Assembly: GCA_947498505.1 (NCBI GenBank)
Contig: CANMKG010000002.1
Span: 62,001-126,000 of the forward strand
Direction of reading: 5' to 3'
DNA: 64,000 bases
From: an uncultured Maribacter sp.
GTDB taxonomy: Bacteria; Bacteroidota; Bacteroidia; Flavobacteriales; Flavobacteriaceae
In this document: piece by piece, positions 5,836-62,364 of the stretch
How positions within the stretch are numbered: the stretch's first letter is position 1
How the letters are laid out: each line of letters opens with the position of its first letter
Position numbers and translations under genes: made by a program
Notes under the pieces: generated by a model
What the model saw: the letters and a program-made list of their open reading frames with translations, nothing else
Told to the model about the DNA's origin: nothing
Database searches by the model: none

Positions 5836-5907
5836 AGCCTCGTAGTTCAATGGATAGAATAGGAGTTTCCTAAACTTTAGATGCAAGTTCGATTCTTGCC
5901 GAGGCTA
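5836..5907 (+). tRNA. tRNA-Arg(CCU)
   Basis: A full cloverleaf can be drawn: acceptor AGCCTCG (5836-5842) with CGAGGCT (5900-5906), T8-A9, D arm GTTC/GAAT, anticodon stem GGAGT (5862-5866) with ACTTT (5874-5878), loop TTCCTAA placing CCT at the anticodon, four-nt variable loop, T arm GCAAG-TTCGATT-CTTGC, discriminator A. CCA is not encoded. The anticodon stem has two G-T pairs. It reads the rare AGG codon. Confidence 0.9.
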
Positions 5908-23823: not shown

Positions 23824-24156
23824 ATGAATGCACTTAGAAACAAAGTACAGTTAATTGGAAATTTAGGTCAAGACCCAGAAGTAGTAACCCTAGATGGTGG
23901 TAAAAAATTAGCAAAATTTACTATTGCTACTAACGAAACCTATAAAAACGCACAGGGCGAAAAAGTAACAGATACGCAATGGCATAATATTGTAGCCTGG
24001 GGAAAAACTGCAGATATTGTGGAAAGTTATTTAAGCAAAGGAAACGAAGTTGCTATTGAAGGTAAACTTACCCACCGCGCTTACGAAACCAAAGAAGGCG
24101 AAAAAAGATACATCACAGAAATACGCTGTAATGAGTTGTTGATGTTAGCGAAATGA
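23824..24156 (+). CDS. ssb: Single-stranded DNA-binding protein, short form without acidic tail
   Basis: 110 aa consisting only of the OB fold: NKVQLIGNLGQDPEV at the start, TQWHNIVAWGKTADIVESYL in the centre, KGNEVAIEGKLTHRAYE, and a final strand ending NELLMLAK. The usual flexible Gly/Gln-rich linker and the acidic C-terminal tip (DDxxPF), which recruit replication and repair partners, are missing. It may be a secondary paralogue. Binds single-stranded DNA as a tetramer in the cytosol. Its stop codon abuts the first REP-like repeat. Confidence 0.88.
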   Translation: MNALRNKVQLIGNLGQDPEVVTLDGGKKLAKFTIATNETYKNAQGEKVTDTQWHNIVAWGKTADIVESYLSKGNEVAIEGKLTHRAYETKEGEKRYITEIRCNELLMLAK

Positions 24157-24470
24157 TTTCGACTTCGCTCAATCTATTTCGACTTCGCTCCTCTCGACTC
24201 CGCTCGAGGAGCAGCGCAGTCGAGAGTATGCGTTAGAATAAAGGGTTTACCTTTTTAGAATCAAAATTTTAGAGGAATGGGTATTTCATAACTTTTTTTA
24301 ACCAGAGAGGTTTTACCTCCTATACACAAGCTTTTACTGTGTAAGAATGCCTTTCCTAAATAAAGAGCCTATTCTTCCCAACACCCCTCCTCGAGCGGAG
24401 TCGAGAGGAGCGAAGACACAATACCCCTCCTGAGCGAAGACGAAGGAAGGGGTTTAACAAACACAAAACC
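24157..24470. repeat. REP-like inverted pair in the ssb-GIY-YIG intergenic region
   Basis: Short copies TTTCGACTTCGCTC start at 24157 and 24177. A hairpin at 24191-24226 has a 13-bp stem with one mismatch (CTCTCGACT-x-CGCT against AGCG-x-AGTCGAGAG). The 30 bases at 24181-24210 recur in inverted orientation at 24388-24417 with 29 of 30 identical. A further fragment, TGAGCGAAGACGAAGG, lies at 24431. The stretch between (24227-24387) holds no gene; GAGGTTTTACCTC near 24306-24318 is a small palindrome. Confidence 0.8.
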
Positions 24471-24920
24471 ATGAAAACATATTACGTATATATTTTACGA
24501 TGTGCGGATGATTCATTTTACACAGGTATTACTAATAATCTGGAACGGAGAATTTTTGAACATCAAACAGGATTTTACAAAGGAAGTTACACTAGTACGC
24601 GCCGACCAATTACGCTGGAAGGTTATGTAGAGTTTCAGAATGCTTTTAAGGCAATGCGATTTGAGCGGCAAGTAAAAAAGTGGTCACGGGCAAAAAAGGT
24701 AGCATTATGTAACAATGAGTTTGCAGAGTTGAAGCAACTGGCAGAATGCAGGAATTTTACGCATTGTAGGTACAAACCCCTCCCCTCGACTCCGCTCGGG
24801 AAGGGGCAGGAGCTTCAATTCGAAAATGAGTCAATGTCTTCAACTTTGTTTGGGGAGGGGCAAGAACCACAGCTTGGGAGTGAGACAATGTCTTCAACTC
24901 CACTTGGTAAGGAGGAATAA
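24471..24920 (+). CDS. GIY-YIG nuclease (UPF0213-like) with repeat-derived C-terminal tail
   Basis: 149 aa. Residues 1-95 are the small single-domain GIY-YIG fold: YYVYILRC and FYTGITNNLERRIFEHQTG carry the GIY and YIG equivalents and the catalytic Arg; a Glu (EGYVEF) and the KAMRFERQVKKWSR helix follow. Family members usually end near residue 90-100. From about residue 103 the tail (PLPSTPLGKGQELQF, then MSSTLFGEGQEPQLG) is encoded by a 54-bp tandem repeat containing the REP core. The stop at 24918-24920 falls inside the array, and the downstream copies remain in the same frame. Cytosolic; possible DNA target is the surrounding repeat. Confidence 0.85.
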   Translation: MKTYYVYILRCADDSFYTGITNNLERRIFEHQTGFYKGSYTSTRRPITLEGYVEFQNAFKAMRFERQVKKWSRAKKVALCNNEFAELKQLAECRNFTHCRYKPLPSTPLGKGQELQFENESMSSTLFGEGQEPQLGSETMSSTPLGKEE

Positions 24921-25130
24921 CTTCAACTTGGGAATGAATCTATTTCTTCAACTCCACTCGGGAAGAGGCAGGAACCTGAAGATGAGGCAATGTTTTCAAC
25001 TCCGCTTGGGAAGAGAGAATAACTTCAACTTGGGAATGAATCTACTTCTTCAACTCCGTTCGGGAAGGGGCGGGAACAATAACTTGAAGATGAGTCTTTT
25101 TCAATGTCTTCTACTTATAGGTAATGAACA
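24777..25130 (+). repeat. 54-bp tandem array (repeat A), in phase with the GIY-YIG frame
   Basis: Copies of TCTTCAACTCCxCTYGGG begin at 24837, 24891, 24945, 24993 (TTTTCAAC), 25047 and 25107 (degenerate), preceded by a REP-like CTCGACTCCGCTCGGG at 24785. Spacings are 54, 54, 48, 54 and 60, all multiples of three, and every copy starts in the reading frame of the upstream nuclease. Stops at 24918, 25020 and 25080 area interrupt what would otherwise be one long repetitive tail. No gene downstream of 24920 is supported. Confidence 0.8.
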
Positions 25131-25148
25131 AAGTCAAAACTCTTCTCC

Positions 25149-25352
25149 AAGCGAAGCTTATTTGAGTAAAGGTTAGAGAATTAAAGTAACCCCTTCCCCA
25201 AGCGAAGTTTATGTGAGTAACGTTTCAGAGAATTAAAGTAATCCCTCCCCGAGTAAAGGTTGTGTGTGTTTTTTTGGACAATTATGGGGATTCCTTCCTA
25301 AGAGAAGTTTGTTTGAGTAAAGGTTAGAAAATTAAAGTAACCTCTCCCCGAG
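25149..25352. repeat. Second degenerate tandem array (repeat B, ~51 bp)
   Basis: Units of the form AGCGAAGTTTATxTGAGTAA, followed by AGAGAATTAAAGTAACCCCT, start near 25150 and 25201, with a truncated copy near 25240 and a third near 25301. The last copy ends in the REP core GAGCGGAGTCGAGG. Together with repeat A this fills the 450 bp between the nuclease and the pigment operon. No coding sequence is seen here. Confidence 0.7.
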
Positions 25353-25377
25353 CGGAGTCGAGGGGGGTGGTTACTTT
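25334..25377 (-). terminator. REP-like hairpin at the 3' end of the flexirubin operon
   Basis: AAAGTAACC (25334-25342) pairs perfectly with GGTTACTTT (25369-25377), and inside it CCCC (25346-25349) pairs with the G-run at 25362-25367, enclosing the REP core. The stop codon of the leftmost operon gene (25371-25373) lies within the arm. On the - strand the hairpin is followed by TTTAATTTTC, so it is a reasonable terminator. Confidence 0.6.
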
Positions 25378-26660
25378 CTTTTATCAAAAACCGTCACTGG
25401 TTTTCTCCCCAGTTTAGAAAAACTTAATTTTTGAATTTCTTTTTTATCGCAAAACTCAATTCTGGGTGAAACTCTTAGTTTAGATCTAAAATGATCTTTA
25501 ATATTATTCAATAGTTGGTCTGATGAGGTTTTAGAGGCTATTTTAATAAGAATTTCATCAGTGCCAATACTATTGTGGTAAATTTCAATAACATGGCTTT
25601 CTACCTCATTAAAATCGTTTAGTAAATTATCCATCGCAGGTGGATACAAGGTAGTGCCTTTATATTTAATCATTTGTTTTTTACGCCCTACAACAGGACC
25701 CAAACGCAAAGTGTTTCTTCCGCACGAACAAGCTTCGTCATGCGCAATAACAATATCACCCGTTCTAAAGCGCAAAAGAGGCATACCTTCAACGCCTAAA
25801 GTGGTAATAGTGAGTTCACCTTCTTCTCCTTTGGGAACAGGATTATTGTTTTCGTCTAAAATTTCAACAATAATAAGTTCCGGATGATGGTGTCCACCTT
25901 GTTGCGCCGAACATTCAGTAAAAGCTGTACTCATTTCGGTAGAGGCATAGGTGGAATACAATTCAATATCCCACGCATTTTTAATTTTGTTACCTAAAAT
26001 GTTTAGCGAAAAATCTTGATTCCGTAGCGATTCTCCAATGCAAATAGCACCTTTTATTCCGGATTCTTCCAAATTAATGTTGTGTTCCTCGGCATATTGC
26101 ACCAGTTTTAGTAAAAAGGAAGGTACCACAATTAAATATGTGGGCTTAAATTTTTTAATAGTATCCCATTGCAATTCAGGAATACCAGCGCCAACCCTAA
26201 TAATACCTGCACCAAGTTTACGTGTACCTAAAAAATACGCCAAACCTGCCATAAATCTCCTGTCAATTGTAGTGGTGAGTTGTAAAATATCTTCTTTTAC
26301 AACTCCAGCACATGCAAACGAAATAGCTTCGTTATAGGCAAGGCGTTCTAAATCGGCATCGGTTAAAGTAACAGTAACGGGCTCTCCTATAGTTCCTGAT
26401 GTGGTTACATAGTCAATAATTTTGGTGCTTGGAACGCAAATAAAATCGTTATTATATTTTTGAAGCTCATCTTTAGTAGTCGTAGGTATTTTTACTAAAT
26501 CTTCAAGAGTTTTAATATCTGATACCGCTATATTGTTATGTTTAAAAAGTTGCTGATAATAAACGGAATGTTCCTGTAAATAGGGAATAAGTTGTTTCAG
26601 TTTTTCTTCTTGAAACAATTTTATTTCTTGAGCAGATGCCTTTTCAATTTCAGGAATCAT
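25371..26660 (-). CDS. Phenylacetate-CoA ligase-like AMP-forming ligase (flexirubin cluster)
   Basis: 429 aa, typical for PaaK-type adenylating enzymes. Visible motifs: the phosphate-binding loop TTSGTIGEPVTVT (about 86-98), YASTEMST (A5-like), LRFRTGDIV (ribose-binding Asp), and the C-terminal KLGRKPV lysine region. The CSCGR pair of cysteines is also seen in the family. In aryl-polyene and flexirubin clusters such an enzyme activates the aromatic starter (here 4-coumarate) for loading onto an ACP. Last gene of the leftward operon; it overlaps the preceding gene by 4 bp. Confidence 0.85.
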   Translation of the reverse strand: MIPEIEKASAQEIKLFQEEKLKQLIPYLQEHSVYYQQLFKHNNIAVSDIKTLEDLVKIPTTTKDELQKYNNDFICVPSTKIIDYVTTSGTIGEPVTVTLTDADLERLAYNEAISFACAGVVKEDILQLTTTIDRRFMAGLAYFLGTRKLGAGIIRVGAGIPELQWDTIKKFKPTYLIVVPSFLLKLVQYAEEHNINLEESGIKGAICIGESLRNQDFSLNILGNKIKNAWDIELYSTYASTEMSTAFTECSAQQGGHHHPELIIVEILDENNNPVPKGEEGELTITTLGVEGMPLLRFRTGDIVIAHDEACSCGRNTLRLGPVVGRKKQMIKYKGTTLYPPAMDNLLNDFNEVESHVIEIYHNSIGTDEILIKIASKTSSDQLLNNIKDHFRSKLRVSPRIEFCDKKEIQKLSFSKLGRKPVTVFDKRK

Positions 26661-60246: not shown

Positions 60247-62364
60247 TTATTTATGAAGCGCTAGTTGAATACGTTTTCTAGGAACGTCTACTTCCAAAAC
60301 CTTTACAATGATTTGCTGGTGTAAACTTACATGTTCGTTAACATCTTTTACAAAGGAATTGGATAGGTTCGAAACATGAATTAACCCGCTTTCCTTTATG
60401 CCAATATCCACAAAACATCCAAAATTGGTAATGTTATTTACAATTCCAGGTAAAAGTTGACCCGAAGTTAAATCAGTAATAGATTTAATTTTTTGATTAA
60501 ATGTAAACACTTTGGCCTTTTCACGTAGGTCCAATCCTGGTTTTTCTAGTTCGTTTACAATGTCCTTTAATGTTAGCAATCCAACATCTTGAGTGGTATA
60601 ATTACTAAGATTAATATTTTCAAGCTCTTTTTTATTCCCTACAAGATTTGCTACGTTCATGTTTTTATCTTTTGCCATTTTTTCTGCAATGGCATAACTT
60701 TCTGGATGTATAGCAGAATCGTCTAATGGATTTTTGGCATTTTTAATACGTAAAAATGCTGCACCTTGTTCAAACGCTTTCCCTCCTAAACGCGGAACTT
60801 TTTTAATGGAATTTCGGTTTAAAAAAGAACCATTTTCATTTCTATAGGTTACTATATTTTCAGCCAATTTTGACCCAATACCCGAAACGTAGCTGAGCAA
60901 AGGTATGCTTGCTGTGTTAATATTTACACCAACAGAATTTACACAACTTTCAACAACGCTATGTAGAGATTTCTGTAATTTGGCTTGGTCAACATCATGT
61001 TGGTATTGCCCAACACCTATTGATTTTGCGTCAATTTTTACCAACTCAGCCAAAGGGTCAGCGAGTCTTCTTCCTATTGAAACAGCTCCTCGAACGGTAA
61101 CATCGTAATTTGGAAATTCGTCTCTGGCAATTTTTGAAGCAGAGTAGATAGATGCTCCTGCTTCGCTAACGACAAATACTTCAATAGCATTTTTAAAATG
61201 AACTCTTTTTATCAGTTGTTCTGTTTCACGAGATGCGGTTCCGTTACCAATAGCAATGGCTTCAATTTTATAAGCATCAGCCAGGGAACTTATTTTTTTA
61301 ATAGCTCCAGAACTGTCATTTTGTGGAGGGTGTGGATAAATGGTTTCATTATGTAGTAAATCGCCCTGAGCACTTAAGCAAACCACTTTGCACCCTGTTC
61401 TAAATCCTGGATCAATGGCTAAAATTCTTTTTTCTCCAAGGGGTGCTCCAAGTAATAACTGTTTTAGGTTTTTTGAGAAAACACGAATAGCCGCTTCATC
61501 TGCTTTTTTCTTGGCTAGTTTAATACTTTCGTTAGAAAGTGATGGTAAAAGTAAACGTTTATAAGCATCCTTAATGGCTAAAATAATTTGGTCACTGCAC
61601 TCGTTGTTGGACTTAATGATGCGGTTTTCTATTTTGTTTAAAGCACGTTCATCATCTATTTCAATTTTTGTTCGAATAAATCCTTCGTTTTCTGCTCTTA
61701 ATATAGCAAGTAAGCGGTGAGATGGACAACGGCTTAATGATTCGGACCAATCAAAATAATCACGAAATTTTTGTGCTTTTTCATCCTCTTTTTTAGTACT
61801 GATTACTTTGGTGGTAATCTGAGCAAATTTTTCTAATTGGTAACGAATTTGATTTCGAATATCAGAGCGTTCATTAATCCATTCAGCAATAATATGTCTA
61901 GCACCTTGCAGGGCTTCTTCTTCCTCGGCAACATTATTACTAATATATTTAGAAGCTGTAAATTCAATATCACTGGCATTTTGCGCCATTATGATTTTTG
62001 CAAGAGGCTCTAAACCTTTATTTCTAGCTGCTTCAGCTTTTGTTTTTTTACTTTTTTTATAGGGGAGGTAAATATCTTCCAGAACAGTTAGTTCTGACGT
62101 ATTATTAATTTTTTGTTGAAGTTCGGTAGTTAAAACTTGTTGCTCTTCAAGTGCTTTTAAAATTGCTTTTTTGCGTTTTTCAAGCGATTCAAATTGTTCT
62201 TTAAAAGTTACAATTTGTCCAATTTGAACTTCATCTAAATTACCTGTTGCTTCTTTACGATAACGCGATATAAATGGAATTGTACAATCTTCGTTTAAAA
62301 GTGCAATAGTATTTTTAACACCTTGCTCAGGAAGTTGAGTATGTTTGGTTATATATTTTATCAT
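60247..62364 (-). CDS. Tex-family transcription accessory/RNA-binding protein
   Basis: 705 aa. Order of domains: N-terminal helical Tex region, YqgF-like RNase H fold (AIDPGFRTGCKVVCL, about 335-350), helix-hairpin-helix pair (YVSGIGSKLAENIV; IKKVPRLGGKAFEQGAAFLRI) and a C-terminal S1 domain (GIVNNITNFGCFVDIGIKESGLIHVS). Cytosolic nucleic-acid-binding protein affecting transcription. Shorter than gammaproteobacterial Tex by roughly 70 residues but all domains are present. Its start codon lies directly behind the terminator of the upstream OmpA gene. Confidence 0.93.
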   Translation of the reverse strand: MIKYITKHTQLPEQGVKNTIALLNEDCTIPFISRYRKEATGNLDEVQIGQIVTFKEQFESLEKRKKAILKALEEQQVLTTELQQKINNTSELTVLEDIYLPYKKSKKTKAEAARNKGLEPLAKIIMAQNASDIEFTASKYISNNVAEEEEALQGARHIIAEWINERSDIRNQIRYQLEKFAQITTKVISTKKEDEKAQKFRDYFDWSESLSRCPSHRLLAILRAENEGFIRTKIEIDDERALNKIENRIIKSNNECSDQIILAIKDAYKRLLLPSLSNESIKLAKKKADEAAIRVFSKNLKQLLLGAPLGEKRILAIDPGFRTGCKVVCLSAQGDLLHNETIYPHPPQNDSSGAIKKISSLADAYKIEAIAIGNGTASRETEQLIKRVHFKNAIEVFVVSEAGASIYSASKIARDEFPNYDVTVRGAVSIGRRLADPLAELVKIDAKSIGVGQYQHDVDQAKLQKSLHSVVESCVNSVGVNINTASIPLLSYVSGIGSKLAENIVTYRNENGSFLNRNSIKKVPRLGGKAFEQGAAFLRIKNAKNPLDDSAIHPESYAIAEKMAKDKNMNVANLVGNKKELENINLSNYTTQDVGLLTLKDIVNELEKPGLDLREKAKVFTFNQKIKSITDLTSGQLLPGIVNNITNFGCFVDIGIKESGLIHVSNLSNSFVKDVNEHVSLHQQIIVKVLEVDVPRKRIQLALHK

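Follow-up and report, generated by a model that had tools for sequence, protein, structure and literature searches.

We describe a GIY-YIG nuclease gene that runs into a 54-bp repeat array, located in a 64,000-nucleotide stretch of an uncultured Maribacter sp. (Flavobacteriaceae; GenBank assembly GCA_947498505.1, contig CANMKG010000002.1, forward-strand positions 62,001 to 126,000). This whole stretch is referred to here as the window, and unmarked coordinates are its own. We consider it likely that the array consists of decayed tandem copies of a palindrome resembling repetitive extragenic palindromic (REP) sequences, and not of a selected protein tail, and that the locus is part of a nuclease-palindrome system. 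In the Flavobacteriaceae, nuclease clade and palindrome class are linked in a clade-specific manner, with class A palindromes beside nuclease genes of clade E and class B palindromes beside those of clade K. The clades were sorted on the C-terminus among the best 80 of 455 relatives found, in named genomes, and comprise 23 (E) and 55 (K) genes, with 2 others.

Results

The locus is laid out as follows (coordinates, strand, feature).

24160-24235, +: left-hand cluster of class A palindromes, with cores at 24160, 24180, and 24195 (pattern search)
24384-24457, -: left-hand palindromes, inverted, just upstream of the open reading frame (ORF), with cores at 24392 and approximately 24431
24471-24920, +: GIY-YIG nuclease ORF of 149 aa (PF01541), with a conserved core at 24471-24782 (104 aa) and the remainder from the repeat array
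24775-24806, +: right-hand palindrome with the exact core at 24787-24798, overlapped by the ORF and read P-L-P-S-T-P-L-G-K-G
24786-25125, +: 54-bp array, with six units that derive from the right-hand palindrome and a further, partial one at 25110
24918-24920, +: TAA stop of the nuclease ORF, within unit 3
25142-25358, -: second array of period 51, whose palindrome cores are degenerate and oppositely oriented (Tandem Repeats Finder [TRF] score 173 and repeat search; orientation by eye)
25341-25372, -: palindrome closing the right-hand inverted pair, with its core at 25349-25360

The 54-bp array is real and not a product of chance. TRF reported a period of 54 with 4.4 copies (24825-25057, score 192) and, over the same array, a second period of 102 with 1.9 copies (24881-25077, 88% matches), and a repeat search of the window returned five 125-nt copies at spacings of 54, 54, 48, and 54. 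Read on the TCRACT core, the units start at 24786, 24840, 24894, 24948, 24996, and 25050, followed by the partial unit, and the spacings between these starts are 54, 54, 54, 48, 54, and 60. A first-pass annotation of this DNA had listed spacings of 54, 54, 48, 54, and 60; these are multiples of three, as it stated, and the list is one 54 short of the six spacings that we counted. Its statements that the nuclease C-terminus is read from the repeat, that the repeat core is a REP-like palindrome, and that every copy begins in the GIY-YIG frame in spite of the stop at 24918 were all confirmed: the ORF extends into the array, the exact REP-like core (CGACTCCGCTCG) is present in unit 1, and each of the seven units starts in phase 0 of the ORF. 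Units 4, 5, and 6 depart from this core at two positions and units 2 and 3 at more. The five derived units folded no better than dinucleotide shuffles and therefore appear to be decayed palindromes; for the same reason, we dropped the idea of selected hairpins within the array. Units 3-4 and 5-6 look like one 102-bp duplication, and with such a super-repeat the spacings would not be independent, therefore leaving two independent indels (those behind the spacings of 48 and 60). By our own estimate, the chance of phase agreement is about 1/9 to 1/27. The whole right-hand block is bracketed by the inverted pair 24775-24806/25341-25372, which is 88% complementary over 32 nt.

The agreement in phase could mean that the repeat was selected as protein, with a tail that was formerly longer and a copy number that tunes its length, and the first-pass annotation had proposed such a coding minisatellite. 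In keeping with this proposal, all seven unit starts share frame 0, the units translated past the stop stay alike (S-T-P-L-G-K), codon position 2 is the least variable among the units, and two relatives differ in tail length. The annotation had also raised length variation by copy number, and copy number and stop position do vary among close relatives: the ORF encodes 149 aa here and 137 aa in the orthologue from uncultured Maribacter 4-549 (genome G002), the one close relative available for a between-strain comparison of frame, in which the 104-aa core is 100% identical. The array of Maribacter 4-549, however, consists of two full units followed by a partial one, at spacings of 54 and 55, and the partial unit is out of frame. 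Out-of-frame spacing in relatives was the outcome that the annotation had itself set against its proposal, and a spacing of 55 is what this single close relative (n = 1) carries. Within 24771-25130, moreover, there are five stops in frame 0 and none in frame +1. Pairwise differences between units over their first 36 nt numbered 60, 31, and 64 at codon positions 1, 2, and 3, respectively, and the third-position excess expected under purifying selection on a protein is absent.

The clade E genes as a group point the same way. Ten of the 23 clade E ORFs, a set to which the Maribacter 4-549 orthologue belongs, enter the right-hand palindrome, and they do so in all three frames (phase 0 in four, phase 1 in five, and phase 2 in one); at 21 of the 23, the distance from the stop to the start of the first right-hand palindrome is at most 28 bp. 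TRF placed tandem arrays within 800 bp of 11 of these genes; among their periods are 16, 23, 24, 26, 28, 29, 99, 101, 103, and 121, and the spacings of same-strand palindromes, which are not independent of one another, are distributed 7, 7, and 23 of 37 modulo 3. The protein tail is missing or dissimilar in aligned relatives, and its predicted disorder (see below) likewise speaks against a tail kept as protein. We therefore rejected the coding minisatellite on the spacing of 55, the three frames among relatives, the spacings and array periods in relatives, which do not favor multiples of three, and the lack of a third-position excess, and we consider it highly improbable. The frame match between array and nuclease looks incidental, since the units would share the ORF frame because all of them descend from one 54-bp unit via duplication and two 6-bp indels. 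Judged from sequence comparison, the palindrome origin of the array and its variation in copy number and frame are well established. The second array also has a counterpart in Maribacter 4-549, with a period of 99 and 2.8 copies.

The nuclease ORF matched PF01541 with an E value of 5.5e-16 and 59.1 bits, above the gathering cutoff of 22.6. Residues Y7, Y17, G19, R27, and E65 are invariant across 42 aligned sequences, and we take Y7, Y17, R27, and E65 to be the catalytic Tyr, Arg, and Glu residues of the GIY-YIG family. Codons 1-105 differ from those of the Maribacter 4-549 gene by 8 synonymous and 0 nonsynonymous changes, where approximately 79% of random changes would be expected to be nonsynonymous. 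The nuclease core thus appears to be under constraint, and none was seen on the tail. In the AlphaFold2 model, block pLDDT (predicted local distance difference test) values are 90-97 for residues 1-90 and then fall from 71 to 41-65 without secondary structure, such that the C-terminal tail is predicted to be disordered. The closest solved structures by sequence and fold are the UPF0213 proteins 1ZG2 and 1YWL. The next-best structural matches were weak ones to Slx1 (6SEH and 7CQ4; E values of approximately 0.002-0.03 and TM-scores of 0.35-0.45 on a query that includes the disordered tail). Escherichia coli YhbQ is a relative of the nuclease by tblastn. Among viral contigs, a search for carriers of the nuclease gave 11 pattern matches and zero relatives.

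The link between clade and class was counted within 400 bp of the nuclease genes. We defined the two classes by eye from the first loci, and these same loci supplied the counts. The class A palindrome (TCGACTNCGCTCR) was present at 23/23 clade E genes, 0/55 clade K genes, and one of the two others, whereas the two class B motifs were present at 0/23 clade E genes and at 48/55 and 53/55 clade K genes. Palindrome density is approximately 10 per kb (class A) and 7-8 per kb (class B) within 100 bp of the gene and approximately 0.05-0.3 per kb at distances of more than 1 kb. A second set of 40 loci, taken from genomes of the genus and the family, was typed by eye on the C-terminus when the counts were already known and includes three K-type proteins that duplicate ones of the first set. 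It gave the same picture: all 13 E-type loci had class A without B, all 11 K-type loci had class B without A, and all 12 loci of other types had neither. The remaining four are broken genes, two of them with class A. On a tree of 126 proteins, the palindrome label needs 10 changes compared to a shuffled mean of 54.7, and the split between A and B needs 2.

Such a pattern might arise from shared descent alone, if the nuclease and its flanking repeats had been coinherited at a small number of ancestral sites without being functionally linked. It is true that 10 of the 23 clade E loci fall into one single-linkage context cluster and 16 of the 55 clade K loci into another. Nevertheless, the neighboring genes define 11 context clusters for clade E and 24 for clade K in all, numbers that may be too high where contigs are short (some singletons may be of this kind) and too low through single linkage, and the same kind of link recurs in Alphaproteobacteria with different hairpins. 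We regard shared descent as the sole explanation as quite improbable.

Nuclease genes with internal stops were seen at two loci (L110 and L120) with class A palindromes still adjacent, as if the enzyme decays first and the repeats outlast it for some time. Two GIY-YIG proteins (L121, on the reverse strand, and L082) carry the tail motif S-T-G-S-E, which is perhaps translated from another palindrome class, a CTTCGACAGGCTCA-like one seen beside L082. The window's genome (G000) holds a second GIY-YIG gene (L002, G000:C3:98804-99085), which belongs to clade K and is flanked on either side by a single exact class B motif; the gene directly downstream of it is presumably recJ-like.

Outside the hairpin, at a fixed place that was not part of the search patterns, the palindromes of both classes carry four tag bases. 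Class A tags read TGTC in 105 of 119 cores, and class B tags read CGTC (120) or TGTC (110) in 230 of 236 cores; the stems of both classes are imperfect by eye. The available text of Di Nocera, De Gregorio, and Rocco (2013, PMC3733652) defines CGTC REPs by a CGTC tag that reads TGTC or CCTC in many repeats, and it reports them from Bacteroidetes, with Gramella forsetii among the CGTC-positive species, and chiefly from Alphaproteobacteria. In the same text, CGTC-type palindromes extend over five bacterial phyla and were apparently without a dedicated transposase in 2013, and the REP-associated tyrosine transposases (RAYTs), which are HUH tyrosine enzymes, are linked to GTAG REPs. The flavobacterial class A and B palindromes share the tag of this superfamily. 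They also share its dispersed copies, single or dimeric: 35 of 60 Flavobacteriaceae genomes contain class A sites, compared to 2 sites overall for a reversed-pattern control. Among the matches listed, hand-picked inverted dimers 31-55 bp apart had their tags outward in 23 cases and in the other order in 1; one of the 23 sits at a nuclease locus (in genome G033).

Hairpins beside a gene could instead serve as terminators or mRNA-stability elements, with arrays that arise by replication slippage and no enzymatic link. Hairpins cause slippage, the first right-hand palindrome lies close behind the stop at nearly all clade E genes (as given above), and two Cupriavidus genes have terminator-like hairpins only. 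A regulatory role does not readily account for palindromes on both sides of the gene, for a conserved 4-nt tag outside the hairpin, for outward-tagged dimers dispersed away from the gene, or for classes that are specific to a clade, and we consider it improbable.

Beyond the Flavobacteriaceae, we examined 18 plasmid loci with GIY-YIG genes, partly by eye. Exact CGTC- or CCTC-type hairpins flank the gene on both sides at 8 of the 18, namely in Sinorhizobium (twice, near-copies), Azospirillum, Rhizobium, Shinella (twice), Sphingobium, and Novosphingobium. The other plasmid loci have such hairpins on one side (two), other or imperfect repeats on both sides (three), a class A-like pair upstream (one), or none (four). 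At six loci of 40 kb each, picked from the eight with flanking hairpins, there are 16 tagged hairpins within 350 bp of the gene (4.2 kb) versus 6 in the 215.8 kb lying more than 2 kb away, a ratio of 137 that measures local concentration and not prevalence. The hairpins at the alphaproteobacterial loci mostly have an 8- to 9-bp stem, a loop of 4-5, and a CCA tail, with other tails in some copies at three of the six loci. Among eleven Bacteroidota genes outside clades E and K, tagged hairpins stand on both sides at one (L123), on one side at two (L114 and L126), and at neither side in eight. In Azospirillum lipoferum 4B, the GIY-YIG gene and its CGTC REPs lie between sufB and sufC (L142, 1486-1779). 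On a Planktothrix plasmid (L150), imperfect TGTCATTC-type repeats flank a GIY-YIG gene on both sides, and this gene lies between one for an MmeI-like restriction enzyme and DISARM drmA.

Left and right flanks of the nuclease genes resembled each other in direct orientation, exceeding their own null at 52 of 80 loci and a same-clade null at 50 of 80. We also considered the layout of a classical transposon, with terminal inverted repeats around the gene, and rejected it: the left flank and the reverse-complemented right flank exceeded the 99% null at 1 of 80 loci, and direct similarity dominates.

Downstream of the arrays, the gene at 25371-26660 encodes the flexirubin acyl-CoA ligase FlxY (NCBIfam, 2.1e-222). 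We found flxY in 8 of 8 Maribacter genomes, and the nuclease was found next to it only in G000 and G002 (within approximately 1.5 kb, 0.8 kb in one); the second neighboring gene differs between genomes, so the comparison offers no clean empty site. A structured RNA was also considered and rejected: at Rfam gathering scores, the only match in the window is a tRNA at 5836-5907. An Rfam scan of 15 chosen loci gave one match, the small RNA Flavo-1 at L032 (4266-4326, 43.6 bits), approximately 1 kb from a clade K nuclease.

Discussion

On balance, we lean toward the view that UPF0213-like GIY-YIG nucleases are the long-missing partners of the CGTC/TGTC REP superfamily. They would form a second, independent REP-nuclease alliance beside that of GTAG REPs and RAYTs, at least in Bacteroidota and Alphaproteobacteria, in which each clade reads its own hairpin and local overreplication makes arrays. 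At the window locus, we propose that a nuclease gene was flanked on both sides by REP-like palindromes and that, in this lineage, its ORF came to run without a stop into the right-hand one. The right-hand palindrome and its spacer would have been multiplied in tandem, as 54-bp units and with one 102-bp duplication, and then decayed. Two 6-bp indels would have kept the frame in the window, with a frame-shifting indel already present in the closest relative. The nuclease itself may recognize and nick its cognate TGTC/CGTC-tagged hairpin, probably as a single-stranded or extruded hairpin, its fold resembling that of the branched-DNA nuclease Slx1. Repair or replication from the nick could copy the palindrome elsewhere or in tandem, which would give rise to dimers and to local tandem amplification. 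Both the cleavage and the mobilization are inferred.

Several observations weigh against this view. Inverted similarity between flanks exceeds the 99% null only at the single locus noted above, and 4 of the 18 plasmid loci lack a flanking REP. The protein tree is built on few columns and leaves many forks open, and the clustering of labels on it may in part reflect shared descent. Of the 42 family genomes with a nuclease match of any type, 28 contain class A sites, as do 7 of the 18 that lack such a match; therefore, the presence of class A does not track the nuclease closely between genomes. One Maribacter genome (G005) holds 2 class A sites and no nuclease match, and class A is rare in the window's genome, with 8 sites at no more than one mismatch, 4 of them at the nuclease locus. 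The window palindromes are mostly tagless and, as a group, do not carry the CGTC/TGTC/CCTC tag of the superfamily: TGTCA and TGACA are absent from 24100-25450, and 11 hairpin sites in 24159-25349 show CCTC twice, CCCC three times, and TGTC or CGTC 0 times. Only 1 of 10 stretches tested at the locus folds clearly better than shuffles; 24180-24235 folds better than its shuffles with a z of -2.28, and 24380-24420 folds no better than its shuffles. The tag is likewise found at 0 of 5 dispersed copies (L003-L005), whereas the related Maribacter loci L008-L010 have TGTC at 11 of their 15 sites. The window locus is a decaying member of the palindrome-nuclease system and not a typical one.

Two of these related loci also carry an array of another kind. 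From approximately 2400 in L008 and 2430 in L009, about 600 bp downstream of the nuclease, there are 10-12 units with a 76-bp period and a conserved stretch, ACTGTGAATTATCCTATAAAGATAAGAACTGAAAGCAATTCACAAC, and this array looks like a CRISPR array with long repeats.

The main rival to the proposed alliance is a homing parasite, that is, a free-standing homing endonuclease that inserts into preexisting REP clusters, which would be its landing sites and targets and not its cargo. The GIY-YIG family includes homing nucleases, and the window's nuclease has a weak match to TIGR01453 (E value 0.0052, below its cutoff). The position of the Azospirillum gene between sufB and sufC and the class A sites still present in 7 of the 18 family genomes that lack a nuclease match would fit a parasite of this kind, and the direct likeness of the flanks fits either reading. 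However, palindrome class follows nuclease clade across the 11 and 24 context clusters, which would require one class of target per clade, and class A is rare outside the locus in the window's genome. We judge homing to be possible but unlikely.

We could not find a clade-matched GIY-YIG nuclease for CGTC-type REPs in the open-access journal literature searched, which was judged mostly by title; the papers listed there on GIY-YIG proteins together with palindromes or repeats deal with fungal mitochondria, genome editing, restriction enzymes, LexA, and methylomes, and the available portions of two later papers (PMC12306157 and PMC6006769) make no mention of GIY. If the alliance that we favor is real, a clade-specific GIY-YIG partner would supply CGTC-type REPs with an enzyme as well as a test system and a mechanism, while a widespread protein family would gain a likely substrate. 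The REP way of life would then have arisen with at least two unrelated nuclease folds. The array finding is in itself modest, being what tandem copying of a palindrome at the end of a gene ordinarily yields, and it illustrates that an in-frame repeat tail in this position can be an accident of such copying.

Compared to known systems, the nuclease is closest to the UPF0213 proteins 1ZG2 and 1YWL, its best matches in sequence and fold. Both of these are named simply as UPF0213 proteins, and a connection of theirs to REPs was not found in the literature searched. Slx1, the next-best match, presumably shares the GIY-YIG fold; unlike the nuclease described here, it occurs in complex with Slx4, and the matches to it are weak. 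With the CGTC REPs, as presented in the available text of PMC3733652, the flavobacterial palindromes share the CGTC/TGTC/CCTC tag at one end of the hairpin, and the alphaproteobacterial hairpins found here mostly fit its form, a stem of 8-9 bp that mostly starts with AT, a loop of 4-5, and a mostly CCA tail. The palindromes described here differ in that they flank GIY-YIG genes, and the window's own copies differ in being mostly without a tag. Outward-tagged dimers, which that text describes for GTAG REPs, were found here in flavobacterial class A. The window locus lacks the HUH tyrosine transposase beside GTAG REPs that marks RAYT/TnpA-REP systems (REPtrons): according to the same text, RAYTs are HUH tyrosine enzymes paired with GTAG REPs, whereas the enzyme here is a GIY-YIG nuclease and the tags are TGTC/CGTC or lost. 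It nevertheless resembles REPtrons and REPINs in its overall design, in which short tagged palindromes flank a gene for a small nuclease and are also dispersed, often as inverted pairs, and, as with RAYTs, the type of palindrome follows the clade of the enzyme.
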